NCBI RefSeq assembly: GCF_000970205.1
Contig: NZ_CP009512.1
Location: 248,001-312,000 of the forward strand
Length of the DNA stretch: 64,000 bases
Direction: 5' to 3'
Source: Methanosarcina mazei S-6
Lineage (GTDB): Archaea > Halobacteriota > Methanosarcinia > Methanosarcinales > Methanosarcinaceae
Numbering within the stretch: the stretch's first letter is position 1; the number at the start of each line of letters is the position of its first letter. Of this stretch, positions 49,825 through 64,000 are shown one piece after another. The position numbers and the translations under genes were made by a program. The notes under the pieces are model-generated. The model searched no databases, was not told where the DNA came from, and saw only the letters and a program-made list of their open reading frames with translations.

Positions 49825-50844
49825 TCAGGCGTAGAATTCGTCTCTTGCTGCGACCAGAGCTTTAACGTTCTCAAGAGGGGTCATGGGTGCAATTCCACAG
49901 CCTGGTGCAAGTACATCAATTCCGCCTTCAAGAGCTTCTTTTGCTTCAGCCTTTATCTTGTCAACAGGTCCGGGCAGAAGAGTGAACGGGCTGGAAACAT
50001 TTCCTACTAACCTTGCTCTGGTTCCGATTACTTCCTTGCCCTTCTTTGCGCTTCCGATCTTTTCTTCAACGCTGAGGCCTTCAAAACCGCAGTCTGCCAT
50101 GTCGCTGAGGATCGGGTTCACGTTTCCGCAGATGTGGAGGACAGTTACGGAGTTCACGCTAGAGGCGAACTTCTGAAGCCTTGATTTGAGGAACTGCCTG
50201 AAGGAGTCAGGGCTCATAAGGTCAGGAGAGGCGACCGGGTCTGCGATGGCAATTACGTCTGCACCGGCTTCTACCATTGCATTTGCATATATAATTGAAG
50301 CTTCGGTTGCGATGTCCAGAGCCTGTTCTAAGAGGTCGGTTTTCTTGATGGACCATTTCATGAAGGATTTGACACTTACAAGGTCGGATGCGACTGTAAC
50401 AGGGCCTTCCATACCGCCAACGATTGGCACGTCAGGTCCAACTTTTTCCCTGATGATCTTAATTGCTTCAAGAACTACTGGAATTCTGCCCCTCTGCAGG
50501 AGGTCTGCAGGGACTGCTGCGCCTTCAAGGTCCTTGGGATAGGGGTGACCGGTAACGGAAGGCTGTCTGTTCTTGGTACCCATGTTGATTTCACAGCCCA
50601 TTGCTTCGACCAGAACGGTAAGGCAGTAGGGAAGTCTTACAGCTTCAAGTCCGCTGAGCTCGTGGTTGGCGAGTGCCAGCTTTGCCATGAGTTCGGGGTT
50701 TGTGTGGGCTTCAGGCCAGGGGGCACCGACTACGTCCATGAGTTCTACAATTCCGGTCTGGGTTACGGAACAAACAGGTACTTTGTCAACAGGTTCGCCT
50801 TTCAGGGCGGCTAAAAGTCTTGTTTTAAGTGTGAATTCGCTCAT
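49825..50844 (-). CDS. mtaA: methylcobamide:coenzyme M methyltransferase, methanol-specific
   Basis: 339 residues from ATG 50844 (MSEFTLKTRLLAALKGEPVDKVPVCSVTQTG), the start known for M. barkeri MtaA. A GTG/ATG three codons earlier (50853) has no room for its ribosome binding site. MtaA transfers the methyl group from methyl-MtaC to coenzyme M through a zinc site; the ligand pattern HICGN and the distal PGCGIAPMTP are visible. It is a UroD-fold enzyme. It is transcribed alone, with a strong TATA box and an inverted repeat around 50901-50927. Confidence 0.98.
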   Translation of the reverse strand: MSEFTLKTRLLAALKGEPVDKVPVCSVTQTGIVELMDVVGAPWPEAHTNPELMAKLALANHELSGLEAVRLPYCLTVLVEAMGCEINMGTKNRQPSVTGHPYPKDLEGAAVPADLLQRGRIPVVLEAIKIIREKVGPDVPIVGGMEGPVTVASDLVSVKSFMKWSIKKTDLLEQALDIATEASIIYANAMVEAGADVIAIADPVASPDLMSPDSFRQFLKSRLQKFASSVNSVTVLHICGNVNPILSDMADCGFEGLSVEEKIGSAKKGKEVIGTRARLVGNVSSPFTLLPGPVDKIKAEAKEALEGGIDVLAPGCGIAPMTPLENVKALVAARDEFYA

Positions 50845-50900
50845 ATCGGTCATACCTTTTTTTACTTTTATCCTTGTACATTTATTTTTATTACAATTTT

Positions 50901-51370: not shown

Positions 51371-54238
51371 ATGGAAAAAGGATCGGCTGGGGTCAAACAT
51401 GGTTCAAGCTCTCCATGGGGTGAAGAACATCTTATTCCTCTTGCTGAGTTCCTGCAGAAGCTGGAAGTAAATGAAAACGGACTGAGCGAAGAGGAAGCCG
51501 CCCGCAGACTCCTGAAATGCGGCCCAAATATCCTTGAGGATGCCGGAAAAGAGAATATACTTAAGAGATACTTTCGACAGTTTCGTAACTTCTTCTCCAT
51601 ACTGCTGATTGTTGGAGCTGCTCTTTCTTTTCTCGGTCAATACCTTGATCCTGGGCAGGGGAATATTTATATAGGAATTGCCCTTGTAGGCGTCGTTTTT
51701 CTGAACGGGACTTTCACATTTATTCAGGAATACCAGGCTGTAAAGACAATGGAAAGCTTCCGGCAGCTTCTTCCTCCACATGCAAAAGTCCTGAGGGATG
51801 GAAACTTAAGGTACGTCCTCGCTTCCGAGCTTGTGCCAGGGGACGTTATACTCCTTGAAGAGGGAGATAAGGTTCCCGCAGACGGGCGCCTGATTGAAAT
51901 CAATTCCCTTAAAGTGGATAATTCAGCCCTTACCGGAGAGTCAGAGCCGCAGCTGCGCTCTCTTGAATGTACTCATTCAAACCTGCTGGAGTGCCGGAAC
52001 ATGGTTTTTTCCGGGACTCTTGTGCAGAGCGGAAACGGTAAAGCTGTCATCTTTGCAACCGGGCATGATACCCAGATCGGAAGCCTGGCAATTCTTACAG
52101 AGCAGACATCCTCCGTAGACACCCCTATCAGGAAAGAACTCAACCATTTCATAAAGATAATTTCAGCAATTGCTATTTCCCTTGGCGTTACTTTTTTCCT
52201 GCTCGCTTTTTTTCTTCAGGATATTTTTCTTGCAAGCCTTATTTTTGCCATAGGGATCATTGTTGCCAACGTTCCTGAAGGGCTTTTGCCCACAGTTACT
52301 CTTGCTCTGAGCCTTGCATCCAGAAGAATGGCTTCCAGAGATGCCCTTATAAAGCAGCTTGAATCTGTGGAAACCCTCGGGTCTACCACTGTAATATGTA
52401 CGGACAAGACCGGGACCCTGACCCAGAACAGGATGGCAGTGAATTCTCTCATTATAGGGTTTGAAATTCTGGAGCCGGATAAGTCTTCCATTTATCAAGA
52501 CGGAATTAAGGCGCAGGACATAAATAAAAATGTAAAAAAGGGCCCTGCTGAGAAGGTTGCTGACTCCACAAATATTGCCGGCTCAGGCGAAACAGAAATT
52601 TCTGCTGCTTCAAGTCCCGTGATATATATGGAAAAAATCCCCCCGGCTTTTATAAGGGTTGCAGGTCTCTGCAACAATGCCAAGCTTTATGAGTCGCCTC
52701 CGGGCTATACCGGTGACCCCACAGAGGGGGCCCTTCTTGTTTTTGCGAACAGTTTCATGGATATAAGAGGTCTCCAGGGTAAGTATCAGAGGCTCGAGGA
52801 GTTTCCTTTCGATTCCCTTACCCGGCGCATGGAAGTTATCTGCCGTACTCCCGAAGGAGAGCTTGAAGCGTACCTTAAAGGCGCTCCTGAGGTGGTTGTG
52901 CAGATGTGCACGTCGGTTATGGAGGCCGGAACAGTCAGAGAACTGGATGAATCCGGGAAAAAAGAGCTTCTGGAGAAAGACCTCAGGCTTGCAGAAAAAG
53001 GAGAACGTGTAATTGCCCTTGCCTTCAGGAAAGCAGAAGATCTGAAAGAATCCACCGGGGGCTTCGTTTTCCTGGGTTTCATAGGGATTGTAGATCCTCC
53101 GCGCCCCGAAGCAAGAGAAGCTATTGCAAGGTGCCATGCAGCAGGAATTAAGGTTGTTATGATTACAGGAGATCATCCTGTCACCGCAGAGTCGATTGCA
53201 AGGAACGTAGGGCTTGCGGGTTCGGGAAAGCCTGAAATTATCACCGGGGACGAGTTAAAATCTTTATCCCGCAAGGAACTTGCCTCAAGGCTCAAAAACC
53301 CGAGCATTGTTTTTGCCCGGACTTCTCCAGTCCAGAAGTTAAAAATAGTACAGCTTTTCCAGGCAGAAGGGGAAATAGTTACCATGACAGGAGACGGGGT
53401 AAACGATGCTCCTGCTATCAAGAATGCCGATATGGGAGTTGCTATGGGCAGCGGTACGGATGTGGCACGCGAAGCCGCAGACATGGTGCTTCTGGACGAC
53501 AATTTTGCCACTATAGTAAACGCCGTAGAAGAAGGCAGGACTGTCTTTGATAATATTAAAAAATTTATTGTTTATATCCTTGCAAGCAATATTCCCGAAA
53601 TTCTGCCTTTCATAGCTTTTGTGCTCCTTTCCATCCCCCTTCCCATGCCCGTCCAGCTTATCCTGGCAATCGATCTTGGAACTGATATACTCCCGGCAAT
53701 AGCCTTGGGGGTGGAAAAGGGGGAAGGAGACATTATGGAAAGGCCTCCCAGGAGAAAGGATGAAAAATTACTGACTCCTCAGGTTCTTTTGACAGCCTAC
53801 GGGGTAAAAGGGCCCATAGAGGCTGCTGCAGGCTTCTTCTGTTATTTTGCCGTACTGTTTGAAGGGGGCTGGACTTTCGGAGAAAGGCTTGCAAACACGA
53901 ATCCCCTTTATATGCAGGCGATAACAGCTTTCTTTTCAGCCGTGGTTATCTGTCAGATCGCCAATGTATTTGCTTCAAGAACAGGGACCCAGTCAGTTTT
54001 CTCAGTGGGATTGCTCAAAAACCGGCTGGTTCTCCTGGGAATTGCAAGCGAACTTTTTATTCTTGCCCTCATAATATGGAACCCTTTTGCCAACCTGATT
54101 TTCAATACAGCGCCCATTGAACTCAGGTATATGCTGCTTTCAGTTCCTTTTGCAGTTTTGCTCCTTGGGGTTGACGAACTGAGAAAATACCTCCTGAGAA
54201 AAAACATTAAATGGGCAACCAGACTTTTCAAATGGTAA
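51371..54238 (+). CDS. P-type cation-transporting ATPase, Na,K/H,K-ATPase-like
   Basis: 955 residues, with about ten membrane helices and full P-type machinery: N-terminal cation-ATPase domain (AARRLLKCGPNILEDAGKENILKRYFRQFRNFF), actuator motif DNSALTGESEPQ (~183-194), VANVPEGLLPTVTLALSLASRRMA (~298-321), phosphorylation site ICTDKTGTLTQNRM (Asp345), FDSLTRRMEV, and the hinge MTGDGVNDAPAIKNADMGVAMGSGTDVAREAADMVLLDD. The NVPEGLL helix and TLGSTTVICTDKTG stretch resemble the Na,K-type (P2C) group, reported in Methanosarcina by others. It likely exports Na+ or exchanges monovalent cations. A beta-like partner is not seen. AGGGGG precedes the ATG. Confidence 0.93.
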   Translation: MEKGSAGVKHGSSSPWGEEHLIPLAEFLQKLEVNENGLSEEEAARRLLKCGPNILEDAGKENILKRYFRQFRNFFSILLIVGAALSFLGQYLDPGQGNIYIGIALVGVVFLNGTFTFIQEYQAVKTMESFRQLLPPHAKVLRDGNLRYVLASELVPGDVILLEEGDKVPADGRLIEINSLKVDNSALTGESEPQLRSLECTHSNLLECRNMVFSGTLVQSGNGKAVIFATGHDTQIGSLAILTEQTSSVDTPIRKELNHFIKIISAIAISLGVTFFLLAFFLQDIFLASLIFAIGIIVANVPEGLLPTVTLALSLASRRMASRDALIKQLESVETLGSTTVICTDKTGTLTQNRMAVNSLIIGFEILEPDKSSIYQDGIKAQDINKNVKKGPAEKVADSTNIAGSGETEISAASSPVIYMEKIPPAFIRVAGLCNNAKLYESPPGYTGDPTEGALLVFANSFMDIRGLQGKYQRLEEFPFDSLTRRMEVICRTPEGELEAYLKGAPEVVVQMCTSVMEAGTVRELDESGKKELLEKDLRLAEKGERVIALAFRKAEDLKESTGGFVFLGFIGIVDPPRPEAREAIARCHAAGIKVVMITGDHPVTAESIARNVGLAGSGKPEIITGDELKSLSRKELASRLKNPSIVFARTSPVQKLKIVQLFQAEGEIVTMTGDGVNDAPAIKNADMGVAMGSGTDVAREAADMVLLDDNFATIVNAVEEGRTVFDNIKKFIVYILASNIPEILPFIAFVLLSIPLPMPVQLILAIDLGTDILPAIALGVEKGEGDIMERPPRRKDEKLLTPQVLLTAYGVKGPIEAAAGFFCYFAVLFEGGWTFGERLANTNPLYMQAITAFFSAVVICQIANVFASRTGTQSVFSVGLLKNRLVLLGIASELFILALIIWNPFANLIFNTAPIELRYMLLSVPFAVLLLGVDELRKYLLRKNIKWATRLFKW

Positions 54239-55241: not shown

Positions 55242-56027
55242 TTATATTTTCTCCAGCTTTCTGGACATGTCTTTATAGTATGAAAAAAGCTCTCCGCACC
55301 ATTTAAGTGCACTTTCGTCGAAGCTCATCAAGCGCTGATGATCAAACTTCCCTTTTTTATCAAAGAGCACGAGCGAGCAGAAACGTTCTGTTACAACGTC
55401 TTTAAGAGTTACGTTTTTGTCACAGATATAAACTTCCGCGCTCTTTGATTCTATAAGCATCTTCAGGTCTTCTCTGTAGTCTTTTTTCATCCTATCATAA
55501 ACAGGCTCTGTCAGGATGAGACACATATCTGCTTCTTTTTTTATGAGTTCGGAATATATTTCAATATAAAGAGGATTGAAGTATGAAAGAAATATTTTTA
55601 TATTTCTGGATTCGAGCAGGTTATTTTTAAAGTCTTCAGGGACTTCAAAAAGCCGGTTAAGGTCGGCTTCAAGCATAAAGTAGTTTCCTAGTTCGTCTAT
55701 CCTGTTAAGGAGGTGTTCGGGAATTGCGGTAAAATCATGGTTGATCCAGTAATCATAGTTCTCCTCAAAAACCCTGACTGTATCAAGAAGAGGCTCCATC
55801 TTCTCGACAACTATTTCCCCCATATCCGAAAGCCTGTATGAATTTTTTTCATCCTGCACTATCAGGCGCCCTTCTTTTAGCTTTTTAATTTGAGGCATAA
55901 TTGACGTAGAATTCACGTTGAGGGCTGTTTTTATTTCGTCGCCTGTCTTGGGCCCTTCTTCCAGAAGGAGCAGTACGTCTTTCCTTTTTTCGGACAGGAA
56001 CGCCAGGTCAATCAGTGATATTTTCAT
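55242..56027 (-). CDS. Msr/FilR1-type winged-helix regulator, third copy
   Basis: 261 residues, same family as the two Msr genes at 33.7-35.6 kb: SEKRKDVLLLLEEGPKTGDEIKTALNVNSTSIMPQIKKLKEGRLIVQDEKNSYRLSDMGEIVV (winged HTH), NHDFTAIPEHLLNRIDELGNYFMLEADLNRLFEVPED (FilR1-middle), and the C-terminal SFDESALKWCGELFSYYKDMSRKL. It lies beyond mtaA, so the three Msr homologues bracket the methanol island. Its target is unknown. Confidence 0.9.
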   Translation of the reverse strand: MKISLIDLAFLSEKRKDVLLLLEEGPKTGDEIKTALNVNSTSIMPQIKKLKEGRLIVQDEKNSYRLSDMGEIVVEKMEPLLDTVRVFEENYDYWINHDFTAIPEHLLNRIDELGNYFMLEADLNRLFEVPEDFKNNLLESRNIKIFLSYFNPLYIEIYSELIKKEADMCLILTEPVYDRMKKDYREDLKMLIESKSAEVYICDKNVTLKDVVTERFCSLVLFDKKGKFDHQRLMSFDESALKWCGELFSYYKDMSRKLEKI

Positions 56028-56982: not shown

Positions 56983-57495
56983 TTATTCCCGGGCTTTTTT
57001 TACAAGGGCAAAAATTCCCTGAAGAATTTCTTTTGGAGAGGGCGGGTTCCCGGGAATTTTTACATCCACGGGAAGGATTTTGTCAACTCCCCCAAGTACG
57101 GCGTAAGAACCCTTGTAGATCCCGCCGTCACAGGCGTCGTCTCCGACTGCTATTACATACTTGGGGTAAGGCATGGCTTCATAGGTCTTTTTTGCGGCTT
57201 CAGCCATATTAAGGGTGACTGCCCCTGTAACCAGAAGGACATCAGCATGCCTGGGAGATGCTACAAAAGAAATCCCGAACCTTTCAACATCATAATGCGG
57301 GTTTCCAAGGTTTGAAATTTCTATCTCCGTAGAATTGTCGCTTCCCGAGTCTAGCTCACGGATTGCAAGGCTGTGCCCGAAAACTTTAGGAACTTCTTTT
57401 TTTATTTGTGCTCCAAGGGCTTCCAGTTCTTCGTCCCTGAACTCAAATGTCTCCGTAACTTTCGGACGAAGGAAAAGGGAAAGAGGGTTTACCAT
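56983..57495 (-). CDS. HyfI/NuoB-like small subunit lacking the Fe-S cluster cysteines
   Basis: 170 residues from ATG 57495 (GAGGTCTT ribosome binding site); a GTG at 57507 overlaps that site. The family frame of hydrogenase-4/complex-I small subunits is clear: HSLAIRELDSGS...IEISNLGNPHYDVERFGISFVASPRHADVLLVTGAVT, YVIAVGDDACDGGIYKGSYAVLGGVDKILPVDVKIPGNPPSP. The four Cys ligands of the proximal [4Fe-4S] cluster are replaced. Expected GSCNGCD reads GSDNSTE (Asp53, Thr56), GxC before xGG reads GDDACDGG (Asp120; the lone Cys is two residues off), and PGCPP reads PGNPP (Asn150). It is the last gene of the operon. Confidence 0.9.
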   Translation of the reverse strand: MVNPLSLFLRPKVTETFEFRDEELEALGAQIKKEVPKVFGHSLAIRELDSGSDNSTEIEISNLGNPHYDVERFGISFVASPRHADVLLVTGAVTLNMAEAAKKTYEAMPYPKYVIAVGDDACDGGIYKGSYAVLGGVDKILPVDVKIPGNPPSPKEILQGIFALVKKARE

Positions 57496-57580
57496 ATAAG
57501 ACCTCACTTTTTCTTTATATTCCTTAATTGAATCTGCTCACTGTTTTTTTGCTCGAACCTTCAACTGCCTTTTTCTCTTT

Positions 57581-59206
57581 TCAAAGGTCCGTTCCTGCAT
57601 AGGAGAGGTTAAGGCTCTTATTTATCAGGGGGAAATCAGGAACAATATTTCCAAGAACAGCATGTTCTATAGCCTGCCAGTTGCAGAAAGATGCCGTCCT
57701 TACCTTATAACGGTCAACAATCCCGTTTTTAAGATATACCCAGTGAAGGTTCTGTCCCCTTGGGGCTTCTACCAGGGAAAGGGAATATCCTGTAGTTCCG
57801 GAAATGTTTATCTCTCCGGCACTTTCTCCTCTTCCGCCGTTCTCAGCAAGTACGGGACCCTGCGGGAGTTTTTCCGTGAGACGGAGGATCAGGCCCACAG
57901 CTGCACGGATTTCACTGGCTTTTATCTCAAAACGGGAAAAAACATCTCCTTTTTTCCTCAGGCAGTGCTCTGGAGTAAAGTTCCTGTAGGCTCCGTAAGG
58001 CCTGTCAAGCCTGGTATCCGAAGAGGACCCAGAAGCTCTGGCAATAGGGCCCGTAAGGTTAAGCGGAGAAATAAGTTCTTTCTTTATCACTCCGGTCGTT
58101 ACAAACCTGTCAATCAGGGAAGACGAAGATGTTGCCCTGTTATAAGCGGATTCAAAAGACCTGGAAAACTTCCCAAGAAATTCAGGAATTTCTTTCAGAG
58201 CCGGGTCTGGAATGTCTTTTTTCAACCCTCCGGGAACGGTGATCCCGCGAAGGAACCTTGAACCCGTTAGCTTCTCGTTCAGCCTGAAAACTTCTTCTCT
58301 TAATATGAAGAACGGACTTGCTACAAGCGCGAAACCCACATCTACAGCCATTCCTGCGAGGTCTCCGAGCAGGGAGTAAATGCGCTCCAGTTCGAGCATT
58401 ACCGCCCTCAGGCGTTCCGCCCTTTCAGGCACCTTTATCCCGCAGACCTGTTCCACTGCCATACAGAATCCTGCTGCGTTTGCCATGCTCTCATCCCCAC
58501 TTACGGCTTCTGCGAGAGCAACACATTCTGAAGGGTTTTTTCCTTCAGCCAGCTTTTCTATTCCCCTGTGCTTGTAAAAAAGACGGATCTCCAGGCTGAA
58601 TATAGGCTCTCCTATCACACTGAACCTGAAATGTCCCGGCTCAATTATCCCGGCATGCACCGGCCCGACGGGGATCTGATATACACCCTCCCCTTTGTGC
58701 TGCCTGAATTTGTACTCCTTACGCGGAGCCTCAACCGGGCTGATTGGTCCGTTTTTGAAGGATTTCAGGAGGGGGTGGAAACCTTCAGGATAACACTCGT
58801 GCAGGAAAAGCCTTCGTGTATCAAAAGCTCCGTCAAATTCAATGCCGAAACCGTCCCTGACCTCCCTTTCAAACCAGGATGCTGAGGGAAAAGTTTCTGC
58901 AATCGAAGTAATCCTTTTTTCATTTCCTGTTTCCCTGACGAGAATAAGGACCGGTGACATTCCTTCTTTCTTGAAGGCATAAAATAGGGTAAAGCCGTCC
59001 TTTCCCTCAAAGGCTTCCGCACAGAAAAGCCCTATCAGGCTAAACTTCCTTTCCGCAAGTGCAGGGCAGGCCTCTTTAAACCCGGTTTCCGAAATTCTCA
59101 GGTATATCTCGTTTTCACGGGCGCTGAGAATTTCAAGCTTCTCCTGTGCGATGCTGGAGACTGTAGAAAGCAGTTCTGTTATATCTTCGTTCATTTTGAT
59201 GTCCAT
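57581..59206 (-). CDS. HyfG/NuoCD-like large subunit lacking the NiFe ligands
   Basis: 541 residues. Residues ~45-150 form a NuoC-like (30-kDa) part (WFEREVRDGFGIEFDGAFDTRRLFLHECYPEGFHPL). The rest is the 49-kDa/large-subunit fold (YQIPVGPVHAGIIEPGHFRFSVIGE, LEIRLFYKHRGIEKLAEGK, LRAVMLELERIYSLLGDLAGMAVD). In hydrogenases the active site needs two CxxC motifs. The first (R-V-C-G-I-C-G) reads AEAVSGDES at 232-240. The second (D-P-C-x-x-C) reads NLSYAGTDL at 533-541, the C-terminus. All four nickel ligands are missing. It starts 11 bp after the upstream gene; the gap to the small subunit is 85 bp from its ATG. Confidence 0.92.
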   Translation of the reverse strand: MDIKMNEDITELLSTVSSIAQEKLEILSARENEIYLRISETGFKEACPALAERKFSLIGLFCAEAFEGKDGFTLFYAFKKEGMSPVLILVRETGNEKRITSIAETFPSASWFEREVRDGFGIEFDGAFDTRRLFLHECYPEGFHPLLKSFKNGPISPVEAPRKEYKFRQHKGEGVYQIPVGPVHAGIIEPGHFRFSVIGEPIFSLEIRLFYKHRGIEKLAEGKNPSECVALAEAVSGDESMANAAGFCMAVEQVCGIKVPERAERLRAVMLELERIYSLLGDLAGMAVDVGFALVASPFFILREEVFRLNEKLTGSRFLRGITVPGGLKKDIPDPALKEIPEFLGKFSRSFESAYNRATSSSSLIDRFVTTGVIKKELISPLNLTGPIARASGSSSDTRLDRPYGAYRNFTPEHCLRKKGDVFSRFEIKASEIRAAVGLILRLTEKLPQGPVLAENGGRGESAGEINISGTTGYSLSLVEAPRGQNLHWVYLKNGIVDRYKVRTASFCNWQAIEHAVLGNIVPDFPLINKSLNLSYAGTDL

Positions 59207-59217
59207 ACATACGCCCC

Positions 59218-60756
59218 TTAAACATATCCCAGTTCGAGAATTATCGCATCCAGCAGATCCGTCAGCGAGTCCGGAAAATAAAATCCCAGGGCAAGGGCAA
59301 GAGCCAGCATAAAAACTGCCGGAATCCTCATCCCGCTCTTAACAGCATACTTACGTGGAAGCCTTATTTCATCATGATCTGCTTCTCCGGCTGCGATTTT
59401 CAGTTCAGCCTCTCCTGTTAAGGAATGGGGCCTGGTAATCTGCCCTTCTATTTCTTCCTCCAGGGTTACTTTTGAGAAAGCTTTTAACAGGAAGTTTGCA
59501 AAGGAGGCAGCTGCAAGGATGAGCATAAGCAGTATTGCAAGGGTCAGGTAAGGGGAAATTGCCGCACTTTCCAGCAGGATGAAAAACTTTGCCGGGAAAA
59601 GGGGAAAAGGCGGCATTCCCACGATCGCAATGCTTCCAAGTATCAGGCTCCAGGCTGCCCTGGGCTGGAGTTTAAAAACATCCCACATGTTTTCACGCAT
59701 ATTGCTTCTGTACTGCCTGTGCAGGATGCCTGCGGAAAACAGCAGGGTTTCCTTTACAAGGACATGGACGAGCATGTAGAAAAGGGCCCAGAAAAGAGCC
59801 AGAGGCGTCCCTATTCCTATCCCTATAAGGAGAAGGCCCATATGCTCGACACTCGAGAAAGCTATCAGCCTTTTAAGGTTTCTCTGCTGGAACATGCTGA
59901 ATGAAGCAAGTGCAATTGAGAAAACCCCTGCTGCAAGAAGGATAGAGGAAGCCTGCGGGGCTGCGCCGCTTTCCCTGAGCAGGGCATACATCCTTATTAT
60001 GCCGTAGATCCCCAGGTTCTGCATCAGCCCTGAGAGGATTGCGCTCACCGAAGGTGCTCTTGCATAGGCATCCGGGAGCCAGGTGTGAAAAGGAGCTGCC
60101 CCTGCTTTTGCCCCGAAACCTATGAACATGAATGTGAAGCTCGCGAGGAGCAGGGCAGGTGAAAATTCTGAAACATGAGCTGCCAGTTCTGTCCAGTTGA
60201 GAGTGCCTTCCCCAAGTGCCTGTTCCGAGAGTGTGAACAGGAAAATTAATCCCAGGAAAGCAAAGAGCATGGCTCCGGAAACTATAAAGACGTACTTTAA
60301 GGCTGCATCGATATTTTCCCTTGCAGAAAGTATCGCAACTAGCATGGCGGCACAGACCGTAGTGAGTTCTGCGAAGATCCAGAAGAGTGCCAGGTTGTCT
60401 GAGAAGAGCGCAACTGTGGCTGTAATAAGAAGCAGGTTGAAGGCAAGGTAGAAGGTCTTCAGGTTCTTGGGGTCAAGTTCTCCTGCTTCCATAAGGCTGT
60501 CAGTGTACCCTCTGGCATAGAAGGCTGCAGCAGTGAATCCAAGTGCGGTTATCAGTTCTACATAAAGGTTGAGGTGGTCAAGATACAGCGACTCTCCCAG
60601 CCTTCCCGGCAGGTCGAGAACGGAAAGGGCCACGCAGCTCACAACAAGGTGCAGCATTCCGTTTCCTGCGGCAAGTGCATTCATAAGCCTGTGAGATTTC
60701 GGAATAAGGCCGAATGCCAGGAATATTCCCATTATTAGAAGGTAGTACCGGATCAC
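59218..60756 (-). CDS. HyfF-like antiporter-type membrane subunit
   Basis: 512 residues, about 14 membrane helices of the Mrp/NuoLMN fold. Ion-path residues are kept: a Glu in ALFWIFAELTTVCAAML, Lys in AALKYVFIVSGAM, Lys in FGAKAGAAPFHTWLPDAYARAPS, and Lys in HVLVKETLLFSAGILHR. Such subunits move protons or Na+ in complex I and in energy-converting hydrogenases. The start is GTG 60756, overlapping the previous stop as GTGA and served by AGGAGGTG. Residues ~440-470 form a hydrophilic loop before the last helix. Confidence 0.92.
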   Translation of the reverse strand: MIRYYLLIMGIFLAFGLIPKSHRLMNALAAGNGMLHLVVSCVALSVLDLPGRLGESLYLDHLNLYVELITALGFTAAAFYARGYTDSLMEAGELDPKNLKTFYLAFNLLLITATVALFSDNLALFWIFAELTTVCAAMLVAILSARENIDAALKYVFIVSGAMLFAFLGLIFLFTLSEQALGEGTLNWTELAAHVSEFSPALLLASFTFMFIGFGAKAGAAPFHTWLPDAYARAPSVSAILSGLMQNLGIYGIIRMYALLRESGAAPQASSILLAAGVFSIALASFSMFQQRNLKRLIAFSSVEHMGLLLIGIGIGTPLALFWALFYMLVHVLVKETLLFSAGILHRQYRSNMRENMWDVFKLQPRAAWSLILGSIAIVGMPPFPLFPAKFFILLESAAISPYLTLAILLMLILAAASFANFLLKAFSKVTLEEEIEGQITRPHSLTGEAELKIAAGEADHDEIRLPRKYAVKSGMRIPAVFMLALALALGFYFPDSLTDLLDAIILELGYV

Positions 60757-61439
60757 TGGGATTCACCTCCTGCCCATACCTGCAGTTTCCGGAACTTTTG
60801 CCTGTATTCTTCAATGCTGGAGTCCATTCCCACAGCCAGGATTGTGGTCAGTATGACCAGGATAATAAGGTCAATTATAATCAGGACTTCTATAATGAAG
60901 GGGAGCTCGGTCACAAACAGGCCAAACATCAGCACCCCGTTTTCCATGCTGAGGTAACCGAGGGCTTTTGTGATGACTCTTTTTCTGCTGAATATTACAA
61001 GCATACCCATCAGGGTCAGGGAAAGCCCTATTACCGCCCCGAAAAAGAAAAGCTTAGAGAGGGGCAGACCTTCGAAAACCCTTGAAAGGAAGGTGTAGGA
61101 GAGGATGATAAGACCTATACTCAGCAGAAGAGAGGGCGTTGGCTCCAGATATGTAAAATGGAGGTCTCTCCCTATCTTTATTTTCTCTTCTATCCTGGAA
61201 ATAAAGTAAGGAATCAGGATTACCTTGCTTGCCAGGGTCAGGACCGCCAGTAGCAGGAGCTGGTCTTTCCCGTCCATCAGGTAAAGGAGAGATGAGACTG
61301 AAGCCAGCAGGAAAGACTGGATTGTGTATGCGGTCAATACCGAACTCAGGTTTCGGGTTGAAATGATCAACCCTGCACTGATGAGGACAAAGACGAAAAG
61401 GATCTTAATTATGCCTTCAAGGAAGGTCGGGTCAATCAT
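60753..61439 (-). CDS. HyfE-like membrane subunit
   Basis: 228 residues with six or more membrane helices. It matches HyfE, which combines NuoK-like elements: MIDPTFLEGIIKILFVFVLISAGLIISTRNLSSVLTAYTIQSFLLA, LASKVILIPYFISRIEEKI, GYLSMENGVLMFGLFVTELPFIIEVLIIIDLI. The Glu in MEN and in FIIEVL are the typical charged membrane residues. ATG overlaps the stop of the hyfC-like gene (ATGA). Confidence 0.9.
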   Translation of the reverse strand: MIDPTFLEGIIKILFVFVLISAGLIISTRNLSSVLTAYTIQSFLLASVSSLLYLMDGKDQLLLLAVLTLASKVILIPYFISRIEEKIKIGRDLHFTYLEPTPSLLLSIGLIILSYTFLSRVFEGLPLSKLFFFGAVIGLSLTLMGMLVIFSRKRVITKALGYLSMENGVLMFGLFVTELPFIIEVLIIIDLIILVILTTILAVGMDSSIEEYRQKFRKLQVWAGGESQ

Positions 61440-62377
61440 GCAAACACCTCGATAAGGATTGTAATGGCTGAAAAGAAAAACGCCATGACGTAAAATGCGG
61501 GAAGCCTGAATAGCCTCATCTTTGCAAGGGATGATTCAAAGAGCCCTATTATTATTGCAAGCAGCCCTGCCTTTACAAGGAAGAGAAGGGCTGAAACTGC
61601 AATTTTTCCTGCGTCTATCTCAGTACTGAGCCCTACCGGGAGGATTGTGTTAATCAAAATTCCCATCAACAGGAGCTGTTTAAGGGCATGTGCAAGCTCG
61701 AGCAGGGCAAGGTTCTTTCCTGCCTGTTCAAGGATCATTGCCTCATTAATCATGGTAAGTTCAAGGTGAGTTGCAGGGTTGTCCACTGGGATTCTGCCGG
61801 TCTCCACAATCAGGATAATGAAGAGGGAGATTGCGACAAGGACAAGGGTCGGGCTGATTGGAAGAACCTTGCCTGCGGTAAGTGTAAACATCTGGTGCAG
61901 GTTAAGGCTTTTCAGGACAAATGCCAGAGCTGCAAAAGAAATTACCATGGTAGGTTCGATTACAGCAGCAAGGCTCATTGACCTTGAACTGCCCATGCCT
62001 CCGAATGCACTGCCTGCATCAAGCCCTCCAAGGGCGGTAAAGAACCTTTCAAGCGCCAGAAGGTACAGGAAAACAATTATGTTCCCCAACCCTCCGGCAG
62101 GTTCGGGGACAAATACCAGAGGTACGAAAAGTGAGCAGACAAGAAGGGTTGAAAGGTTAAGGTACGGAGTAAACCGCATGACCCATGAAGAAACAGGGGA
62201 ATACACCGTTTCTTTTTTCATGAGCTTTTTTAAGTCGTAATAGGCCTGAAAGAGCCCCGGCCCCTTTCTTCCCTGGGCATATGCCTTCACTTTCCGAATC
62301 AGAGCCATGTATAGAGGGGCTGCCAGCAGGGCAAACAGGGGATTCAGGAGGGCGAAGAGCAGAAACGAGCTGTTCAT
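61436..62377 (-). CDS. HyfC/NuoH-like membrane subunit
   Basis: 313 residues, eight membrane helices. It has the NuoH/HyfC signatures KAYAQGRKGPGLFQAYYDLKKLMKKE, the acidic membrane Glu in LLALERFFTALGGLDAGSAFGGMGSSRSMSLAAVIEPTMV, and IVETGRIPVDNPATHLELTMINEAMILEQAG. NuoH couples the redox module of complex I to the ion pumps, and here it should link the HyfGI-like module to the antiporter-like subunits. It starts inside the hyfB-like stop (ATGA overlap). Confidence 0.93.
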   Translation of the reverse strand: MNSSFLLFALLNPLFALLAAPLYMALIRKVKAYAQGRKGPGLFQAYYDLKKLMKKETVYSPVSSWVMRFTPYLNLSTLLVCSLFVPLVFVPEPAGGLGNIIVFLYLLALERFFTALGGLDAGSAFGGMGSSRSMSLAAVIEPTMVISFAALAFVLKSLNLHQMFTLTAGKVLPISPTLVLVAISLFIILIVETGRIPVDNPATHLELTMINEAMILEQAGKNLALLELAHALKQLLLMGILINTILPVGLSTEIDAGKIAVSALLFLVKAGLLAIIIGLFESSLAKMRLFRLPAFYVMAFFFSAITILIEVFA

Positions 62378-64000
62378 ACAAAGCCTCCGGTTGCTATAAT
62401 TAGTACAATCACTGCAAGAAAGGCGTAAAGGACATAACTGTCAAGTTTTCCGTTCTGCAGTTTTGAAACATATTTTGAAAAAATATCAATTGCCCGCGCA
62501 GGTGGGATGTAAAGGTATTCTTCAAAGAAGCGGAGCAGGCGTATTTCCACCTTTCCGTTCTTAAAGAGGCTTTCCTTTTCGTCGAAGTACTCGGGTCTGT
62601 TCACAATCTTTGTCCTGTAAATACTTTTGAAGATCATTACAAGAGGCTCGGAAAAGCCTGCAGAGCTGTATTCCATATAAGGTGCAAGGGCCGGGATCCC
62701 GCATCCCCATGTCTCGCTAATCCTTGCAGGGCCCGTTTCTTTTGAGCGGATTATTACGAAAAGGGCTGTGTATATCAACCCGAGAAGAATCCCCAGCAAG
62801 AGAAGGTCCGGAAAATCGATTTTCCAGCCTGCGAGAGATAGAAGCTGCTTTGAAAACAACCCGCCCAGTATACAGAAAGCTGCCGGCACTGCAGGCCCTA
62901 CAAGCATTGGTTTCTGGACTTCTTCTGCAAGCCTGCTCTTCTCAGAGCGCGGGATTGCAAGGCAGGTGATCCCGAAAAGTTTTACGAAAAGGGCAGCTGC
63001 AAGGGCTCCGGTAAGGGCAAAGCTTGAGAGGGCGATTATCAGAAATATGTTCAGTAGAGGGTCTGTTACGGCAAAAGACTGGAAGAAAGCCTGGTAAAGC
63101 AGGAGCTCGCCGGCAAAACCATTTGTTGGCGGCATGGCTGCAATGGATACCGAACCTATCAGGAAAAGGGCAGAGGTTACAGGCATGCTTTTTACAAGCC
63201 CTCCAAAGGCTTCGATTTTCCTCGTGCCTGTAGCATGGACCACCGAGCCTGCACAGAGGAAGAGCAGGCTTTTGAATACAGCATGGTTAAAGGCATGAAA
63301 ACAGGCCCCAGCAAGGCTTAAGAGGGCAAGGGATTCAAGCCCCTCAACTTTGAATACTGCATACAGCCCAATTCCTGTGAAAATAATTCCTATGTTTTCA
63401 ATGCTGCTGTAGGCGAGCATCCTTTTTATGTCATTTTCTTTAAGGGCATAGATTACCCCGAAAAGGGCTGAAATGCTGCCTGCTGTAAGGATAAGCACTC
63501 CCCACCAGAGTTCGGGAGCAGATACCGATAGCAGAAAACGCAGGAAGCCGTAAACTGCAACTTTCAGCATGACTCCTGACATCAGGGCTGAAACACTTGA
63601 AGGGGCTGCAGGGTGAGCATAGGGAAGCCATTTATGGAAAGGGACAAGCCCTGCCTTGACTCCAAATCCGATGAACAGAAAGATGAAAGGTAAAGCCAGA
63701 TCTGCTGCAGGGTATTCCAGAGGCCCGAAATCGGCAGAACCCGTCAGCCTGAAGAGGCTTATGAAGCCCACGAAAAGAAAAGCCGTACTTATATTGGTCA
63801 TTACAAAGTAGAAAAAGCCGGCTTTTTTATTCTCCTCGGAAGAGTAGTCATGCAGAACCAGGAGGAGAGAGGAAAGGGACATTATTTCCCAGAAAACCAG
63901 GAAACTTACCATATTGCCTGCAAGAATGACCATAAGCATGGCAAGGATGAAAAGATTTGTAAGGGATGCCTGAAGGCTTTTTCTGGCTTCGCTTTTAGCG
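62374..64000 (-). CDS. HyfB-like antiporter-type membrane subunit, partial
   Basis: The frame is open to base 64000, so the N-terminus is missing; 542 codons are visible. From the edge it reads AKSEARKSLQASLTNLFILAMLMVILAGNMVSF, then VFWEIMSLSSLLLVLHDYSS, FIGFGVKAGLVPFHKWLPYAHPAAPSSVSALMSGVMLKVAVYGFLRFL (conserved Lys and His), HAFNHAVFKSLLFLCAGSV, and a C-terminal extension with helix (YIPPARAIDIFSKYVSKLQNGKLDSYVLYAF) as in HyfB/HycC. It is the first visible gene of the six-gene operon. Anything further upstream (hyfA- or hyfH-like ferredoxin) would be beyond this window. Confidence 0.92.
   Translation of the reverse strand, partial: AKSEARKSLQASLTNLFILAMLMVILAGNMVSFLVFWEIMSLSSLLLVLHDYSSEENKKAGFFYFVMTNISTAFLFVGFISLFRLTGSADFGPLEYPAADLALPFIFLFIGFGVKAGLVPFHKWLPYAHPAAPSSVSALMSGVMLKVAVYGFLRFLLSVSAPELWWGVLILTAGSISALFGVIYALKENDIKRMLAYSSIENIGIIFTGIGLYAVFKVEGLESLALLSLAGACFHAFNHAVFKSLLFLCAGSVVHATGTRKIEAFGGLVKSMPVTSALFLIGSVSIAAMPPTNGFAGELLLYQAFFQSFAVTDPLLNIFLIIALSSFALTGALAAALFVKLFGITCLAIPRSEKSRLAEEVQKPMLVGPAVPAAFCILGGLFSKQLLSLAGWKIDFPDLLLLGILLGLIYTALFVIIRSKETGPARISETWGCGIPALAPYMEYSSAGFSEPLVMIFKSIYRTKIVNRPEYFDEKESLFKNGKVEIRLLRFFEEYLYIPPARAIDIFSKYVSKLQNGKLDSYVLYAFLAVIVLIIATGGFV

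Follow-up and report, generated by a model that had tools for sequence, protein, structure and literature searches.

Energy-converting-hydrogenase-related (Ehr) complexes are members of the complex I and group 4 [NiFe] hydrogenase family, and their function is treated as unknown in the passages of PMC10284858 and PMC10432482 that concern them. An operon of this kind was described in Methanospirillum hungatei as Pmh, a putative membrane-bound hydrogenase (Mhun_1817-1822), and was also reported from M. acetivorans and M. mazei, with large subunits from which the NiFe cysteines seem to be missing (Anderson et al. 2009, PMC2686161); the passage on Pmh notes the loss of cysteines in the large subunit only. 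The NiFe cysteines are likewise missing from the large subunit of the Ehr complexes of Candidate Phyla Radiation (CPR) bacteria (PMC7304191), and the hyfBCEFGI genes of Methanospirillum have been labelled as an H2-evolving [NiFe] hydrogenase (PMC11346949). Pmh and hyfBCEFGI are almost certainly the same operon as the one analysed here, and the operon and the cysteine loss of its large subunit were already published in 2009. Repression of hdrED lowered the transcript of MA4368 (PMC11619418), possibly a gene of the same operon. In the literature searched, from which the two papers that established Ehr (Coppi 2005; Marreiros 2013) are excepted, no statement on cysteine loss in the small subunit was found, and priority for this loss is not claimed.

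The closest solved relatives, by sequence, of the large and the small subunits (hereafter referred to as L and S) belong to the E. coli formate hydrogenlyase-1 (HycE and HycG, PDB 7z0s) and to hydrogenase 4, from which the present complex differs in that the NiFe site, the proximal cluster and the ferredoxin-like subunit are all missing. The antiporter-like subunits belong to a family common to the operon and the Mrp cation/proton antiporters, and the redox-free ion movement of the latter is the mode of action proposed below; in contrast to Mrp, the six genes of the operon include none for the small Mrp subunits but do include those for the peripheral subunits of complex I. In the DAB/DAC systems and the cyanobacterial NDH-1MS complexes, NuoL-like membrane subunits work with a carbonic anhydrase function. 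The Ehr operon resembles them in having a carbonic anhydrase as a gene neighbour in the Methanomicrobiales; however, it is accompanied by neither DabA nor a Cup protein, and the carbonic anhydrase is a separate beta-class gene that is missing from the genome analysed here.

The window, that is, the whole stretch of 64,000 nucleotides that was analysed, comes from a genome of 4.14 Mb in a single contig and carries the Ehr operon as six genes on the minus strand, with S as the last gene. The genes encode a HyfB-like antiporter-type membrane subunit (62374-64000 and past the end of the window, 646 amino acids at its full length in the genome; NF006418, 1062.9 bits), a HyfC/NuoH-like membrane subunit (61436-62377), a HyfE-like membrane subunit (60753-61439), a HyfF-like antiporter-type membrane subunit (59218-60756; NF006427, 783.8 bits), L (57581-59206) and S (56983-57495). 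Other Ehr complexes share with it the six subunits B, C, E, F, L and S, the absence of NiFe ligands from L and a position on the same side of the L tree. Small Mrp subunits such as MrpB are absent from the six operon genes and MnhB from the genome, and no DabA-type protein was found among the genes of the operon with Pfam. MnhB was observed in 9 of the 18 Methanosarcina genomes that have the cluster-less Ehr operon and in none of the 12 that lack it, a comparison uncorrected for kinship. Downstream of S on the same strand lies a gene for a FilR1-type regulator (55242-56027), a neighbourhood kept in most of the Methanosarcina copies read; elsewhere in the window, a large ORF resembling a cation-transporting P-type ATPase (51371-54238) and one resembling a corrinoid-dependent methyltransferase (49825-50853) were recognised by eye only.

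The S gene is read from a conserved ATG at 57495 as a protein of 170 amino acids, and its orthologues start with MVNPL; the longer ORF (56983-57507, minus strand) begins at a GTG at 57507, 12 bases upstream of the ATG, and gives 174 amino acids, the form from which residues are numbered here. The internal stops that the genome search reported for some copies appear, in the copies read (L021, L023), to be located a little upstream of the conserved start. S belongs to the Oxidored_q6 family (complex I 20-kDa subunit, NuoB; Pfam, 2.8e-27), aligns unambiguously with E. coli HycG and with MbhJ of MBH, and is predicted to retain the fold, its model (pLDDT 93.8) matching MbhJ at 46% identity with an rmsd of 2.0 and also HycG. 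The preliminary description had read GSDNSTE, GDDACDGG and PGNPP at the cluster motifs, and the same letters are found in the translation. Alignment with the relatives places Asp57 (codon GAC, 57337-57339), Thr60 (ACG, 57328-57330), Asp124 (GAC, 57136-57138) and Asn154 (AAC, 57046-57048), all on the minus strand, at the first to fourth cluster-ligand positions. S thus lacks the ligands of the N2 cluster of NuoB homologues in complex I and Fpo and the cysteines typical of the proximal [4Fe-4S] cluster of group 4 [NiFe] hydrogenases.

L, a fusion of 30-kDa and 49-kDa domains of the HycE/HyfG/EhrL type, carries SGDE in place of the CGIC of hydrogenases and ends in NLSYAGTDL in place of ELCYSC or DPCYSC, so that the four NiFe cysteines of group 4 [NiFe] hydrogenases are missing. 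No ORF with a CxxCxxCxxxC motif, as expected for a ferredoxin-like input subunit, occurs within 9 kb of L at this locus, and none was found within the same distance in the cluster-less operons examined, except for a distant ORF on the opposite strand in L155. The absence of the input subunit, which the preliminary description did not mention, implies that the known electron path is lost completely. Complementation by a second, cluster-bearing S was considered and found unsupported, the only other matches to S in the genome being distant and apparently FpoB-, EchC- and Vho/Frh-type proteins.

The loss of the ligands is a conserved feature. In 61 cysteine-bearing relatives Cys fills every one of the four ligand columns (100%), and in none of the 28 archaeal cluster-less rows does it occur there; other strongly conserved polar residues are kept in these rows, and chance or sequencing error is therefore excluded. 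The proximal, N2-like cluster would accordingly be missing from these proteins, as had been proposed, and with it, as judged from the alignment, the redox terminus that adjoins the membrane arm. Methanosarcina and one sister genus together contribute 22 genomes with orthologues of S; the 21 full-length ones carry the same four residues, and the 22nd (L025) is truncated before the first motif. The preliminary description had allowed for sister species that keep the cysteines, with this copy as an isolated mutant, and such a mutant is ruled out by the 21 orthologues. Its question of whether the substitutes are themselves conserved receives a divided answer: Asp57 (26/28), Asp124 (26/28) and Asn154 (27/28) are conserved in the archaeal cluster-less rows, whereas position 60 is variable, with Thr in 21 of the 28 and Ala, Pro or Val in the others. 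Arg50, Asp53, Glu63, Arg86, His87 and Asp89 are retained in all the 28 rows and Tyr135 in 27 of them.

The small, large and four membrane subunits are under purifying selection. Pairwise dN/dS values of S (0.03-0.15) fall in the range spanned by the other subunits, on which grounds decay of the gene was rejected, and S is the best conserved subunit between the two Methanosarcina subclades (82-84% identity, against 58-61% for L and 52-54% for F). The conserved Glu, Lys and His residues of the antiporter-like (B and F) and NuoH-like (C) subunits are retained in the archaeal cluster-less rows. A Glu to Lys exchange at position 390 of HyfF was considered as a correlate of cluster loss and dismissed, being present in genuine hydrogenases too. 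The operon is missing from some genomes of the genus, and in one draft Methanosarcina genome (G076) the E and L frames are interrupted (L043:8979-12836) by a frameshift or an assembly error.

A scan with L across the genomes of 84,980 species yielded 80 named loci, to which scans at the levels of phylum and order added Methanomicrobiales and others. Most other sampled Ehr copies, including those of Nitrospira and Nitrososphaerota, keep four cysteines in S where the present variant has none (the Geobacter EhrS lies outside the sample). Cluster-less tetrads of the form D-T/A-D/E-N were found in Methanoculleus-like, Methanospirillum-like and other families of the Methanomicrobiales and D-P-D-N/D in a further family of the same phylum; the cluster-less state occurs also in one Altiarchaeales MAG and on one short, possibly mis-binned Dehalococcoidales contig. 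Two Micrarchaeota carry P/S-V-G-N, and the CPR bacteria D/T-C-D-D, T-E-G-N and S-E-G-D. Three genomes are named here on our assumption, G075 as M. acetivorans, G118 as Methanocella arvoryzae and G464 as M. hungatei JF-1, the last of which has the operon with D-A-D-N at the ligand positions of S. Among the individual loci, the Altiarchaeales MAG shows a second B-C-E set about 4 kb past a complete cluster-less operon (L052:2952-17450), suggesting a tandem duplication, and four loci (L092, L096, L072, L084) have a HyfC-like gene of about 530-550 amino acids and showed no HyfE-like gene apart from it, which suggests that C and E are fused. In several Methanomicrobiales a gene for a GNAT-type acetyltransferase just upstream of the HyfB-like gene (L152:7397-7876, L153:3899-4543, L202:15657-16280) looks like the first gene of the operon.

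In the tree of L, the hydrogenases split off with support values of 98/94, the L of the window groups with other NiFe-less large subunits, and all rows outside the hydrogenase clade lack the NiFe pair. Loss of the cysteines of S is confined on this tree to an archaeal-type clade (support 100/96), a CPR clade (96/94) and one partial case, which agrees with the earlier proposal that loss of the proximal cluster would be rarer than loss of the NiFe site. In a Rokubacteria S (L099:2571-3080; PCCC, motif GSPNCCE) the first ligand alone is lost, which may represent an intermediate state. A single clade of all cluster-less rows was rejected (AU p 0.0028, for a group named after the first tree seen), which rules out a single origin; cluster loss arose at least twice, in the archaeal clade and separately in the CPR. 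The tetrads differ between the clades, which gives no support to a replacement metal site shared by every cluster-less form.

Four other genomes of the same family carry a relative of S that is 53-54% identical and keeps all four cysteines. In these cysteine-bearing loci the NiFe ligands are also missing where the N-terminal motif of L is readable, and between L and S lies a 2x[4Fe-4S] ferredoxin-like subunit, which in one locus is fused to the reading frame of S; in all three loci in which the next gene was read, this gene is universal-stress-protein-like. They belong to a different clade of the L tree. Among the cluster-bearing copies, those of Nitrososphaerota, without a ferredoxin domain, and of Bacillota, with one, are the closest to the archaeal clade. 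Since they include copies without the domain, loss of the input subunit seems to have preceded or accompanied the loss of the cluster.

On the basis of these observations, the operon is read as encoding a complex I-like ion translocator free of redox chemistry, in which the peripheral arm has a structural or gating role, and a probability of roughly 0.55 is assigned to this reading. With neither known metal ligands nor an input subunit, electron transfer through the peripheral arm appears very unlikely, while the residues of the ion path are retained. With the NiFe ligands of L, the ferredoxin-like input and the proximal [4Fe-4S] cluster of S all gone from the electron path, the membrane arm would move ions without redox chemistry in the manner of Mrp or DAB, for example as a cation/proton exchanger or a transporter coupled to an ion gradient. 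The former cluster pocket, lined mainly by Asp, Asp and Asn, would keep the fold of S and perhaps also the negative charge or a bound cation, and the peripheral arm would stay docked via the retained pocket as a structural or gating element. That the two Asp residues may mimic the negative charge of the cluster is a speculation, and one that does not extend to all the clades. Against an ion translocator stand the possibility, from sequence, of a soluble redox protein encoded elsewhere or of an unconventional cofactor, the retention of the whole L-S peripheral arm, which a plain antiporter would leave unexplained, and the confinement of the carbonic anhydrase neighbours to the Methanomicrobiales.

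The gene neighbourhoods elsewhere fit the handling of ions or CO2. In three CPR loci (L091, L092, L096) the atpD-atpC genes of the F1Fo ATP synthase precede the operon, which starts with S, in the same orientation; L102 likewise has atpD upstream, and L108 has ATP synthase genes in the vicinity. The order of the cluster-less operons in the CPR is S-B-C-E-F-L. In 18 of the 43 Methanomicrobiales genomes with the complex, belonging to four genera, the gene for a beta-carbonic anhydrase is located at most 10 kb from S, in several relative orientations and in two genomes at 46 bp from S; chance proximity is estimated at about 1% per genome, given about one such gene per genome. Flanking by the gene was seen at L197-L201, L153 and L160 and in G464, G492, G477, G456, G473, G370, G383 and others, and formate dehydrogenase genes are also found near the operon in Methanospirillum. 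Both kinds of neighbours would suit a device for inorganic carbon, in which an ion gradient is coupled to CO2 hydration or bicarbonate movement together with the carbonic anhydrase, similar to DAB and NDH-1MS. This is considered unlikely for the complex as a whole, since a neighbourhood with formate genes could reflect formate or CO2 metabolism alone, and neither the CPR nor the Micrarchaeota loci yielded a beta-carbonic anhydrase. The gene is also absent from all 21 Ehr-bearing genomes of Methanosarcina and the sister genus, including the genome of the window, and the link is therefore not directly transferable to the present locus.

A redox enzyme that still receives electrons, via an unlinked protein or an unconventional cofactor such as flavin or methanophenazine in a modified arm, appears less probable than the carbon device. 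The complete peripheral arm under strong constraint and the presence of other membrane redox complexes in the methanogen genome would favour it, and a supply of reduced ferredoxin by the M. hungatei homologue was proposed in PMC2686161. However, neither the input subunit nor any of the known cofactor ligands is present, and different replacement residues in independent lineages are expected from loss rather than from a new shared cofactor site. Only slightly more doubtful is a sensor or regulator function of the peripheral arm, responding for example to pH, ions or nucleotides and gating the antiporter subunits of the membrane: the conservation of S between the Methanosarcina subclades exceeds what a purely structural role would demand, but no ligand-binding domain is recognised. 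A functionless, decaying relic of an Ehr complex, to which the patchy presence of the operon in the genus and the draft genome with interrupted frames might point, is highly improbable in view of the low dN/dS in all six subunits, the identical substitutions across the genus and the persistence in several phyla.

The preferred reading, a redox-free ion translocator, bears on annotation and on the mechanism of complex I. The ligands of both the NiFe site and the proximal cluster are missing from the Methanospirillum operons that carry the label of H2-evolving hydrogenases, and the label is not supported by what can be read from their sequences. A wider proposal, distinctly speculative, is that these operons represent a complex I-like class whose redox centres were lost at least twice to give gradient-driven transporters, acting in CO2-reducing methanogens as a CO2/bicarbonate pump with the carbonic anhydrase; if true, such a pump would energise the uptake of carbon in a way that differs from DAB and NDH-1MS. 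It has long been asked how ion pumping in complex I is coupled to electron transfer, and a natural complex that retains the antiporter-like and NuoH-like subunits and the peripheral arm but no redox centres would show what this arm does in the absence of electrons and whether the membrane arm can run as a transporter. The operon is present in M. acetivorans, which is genetically tractable, and the idea is thus open to testing.
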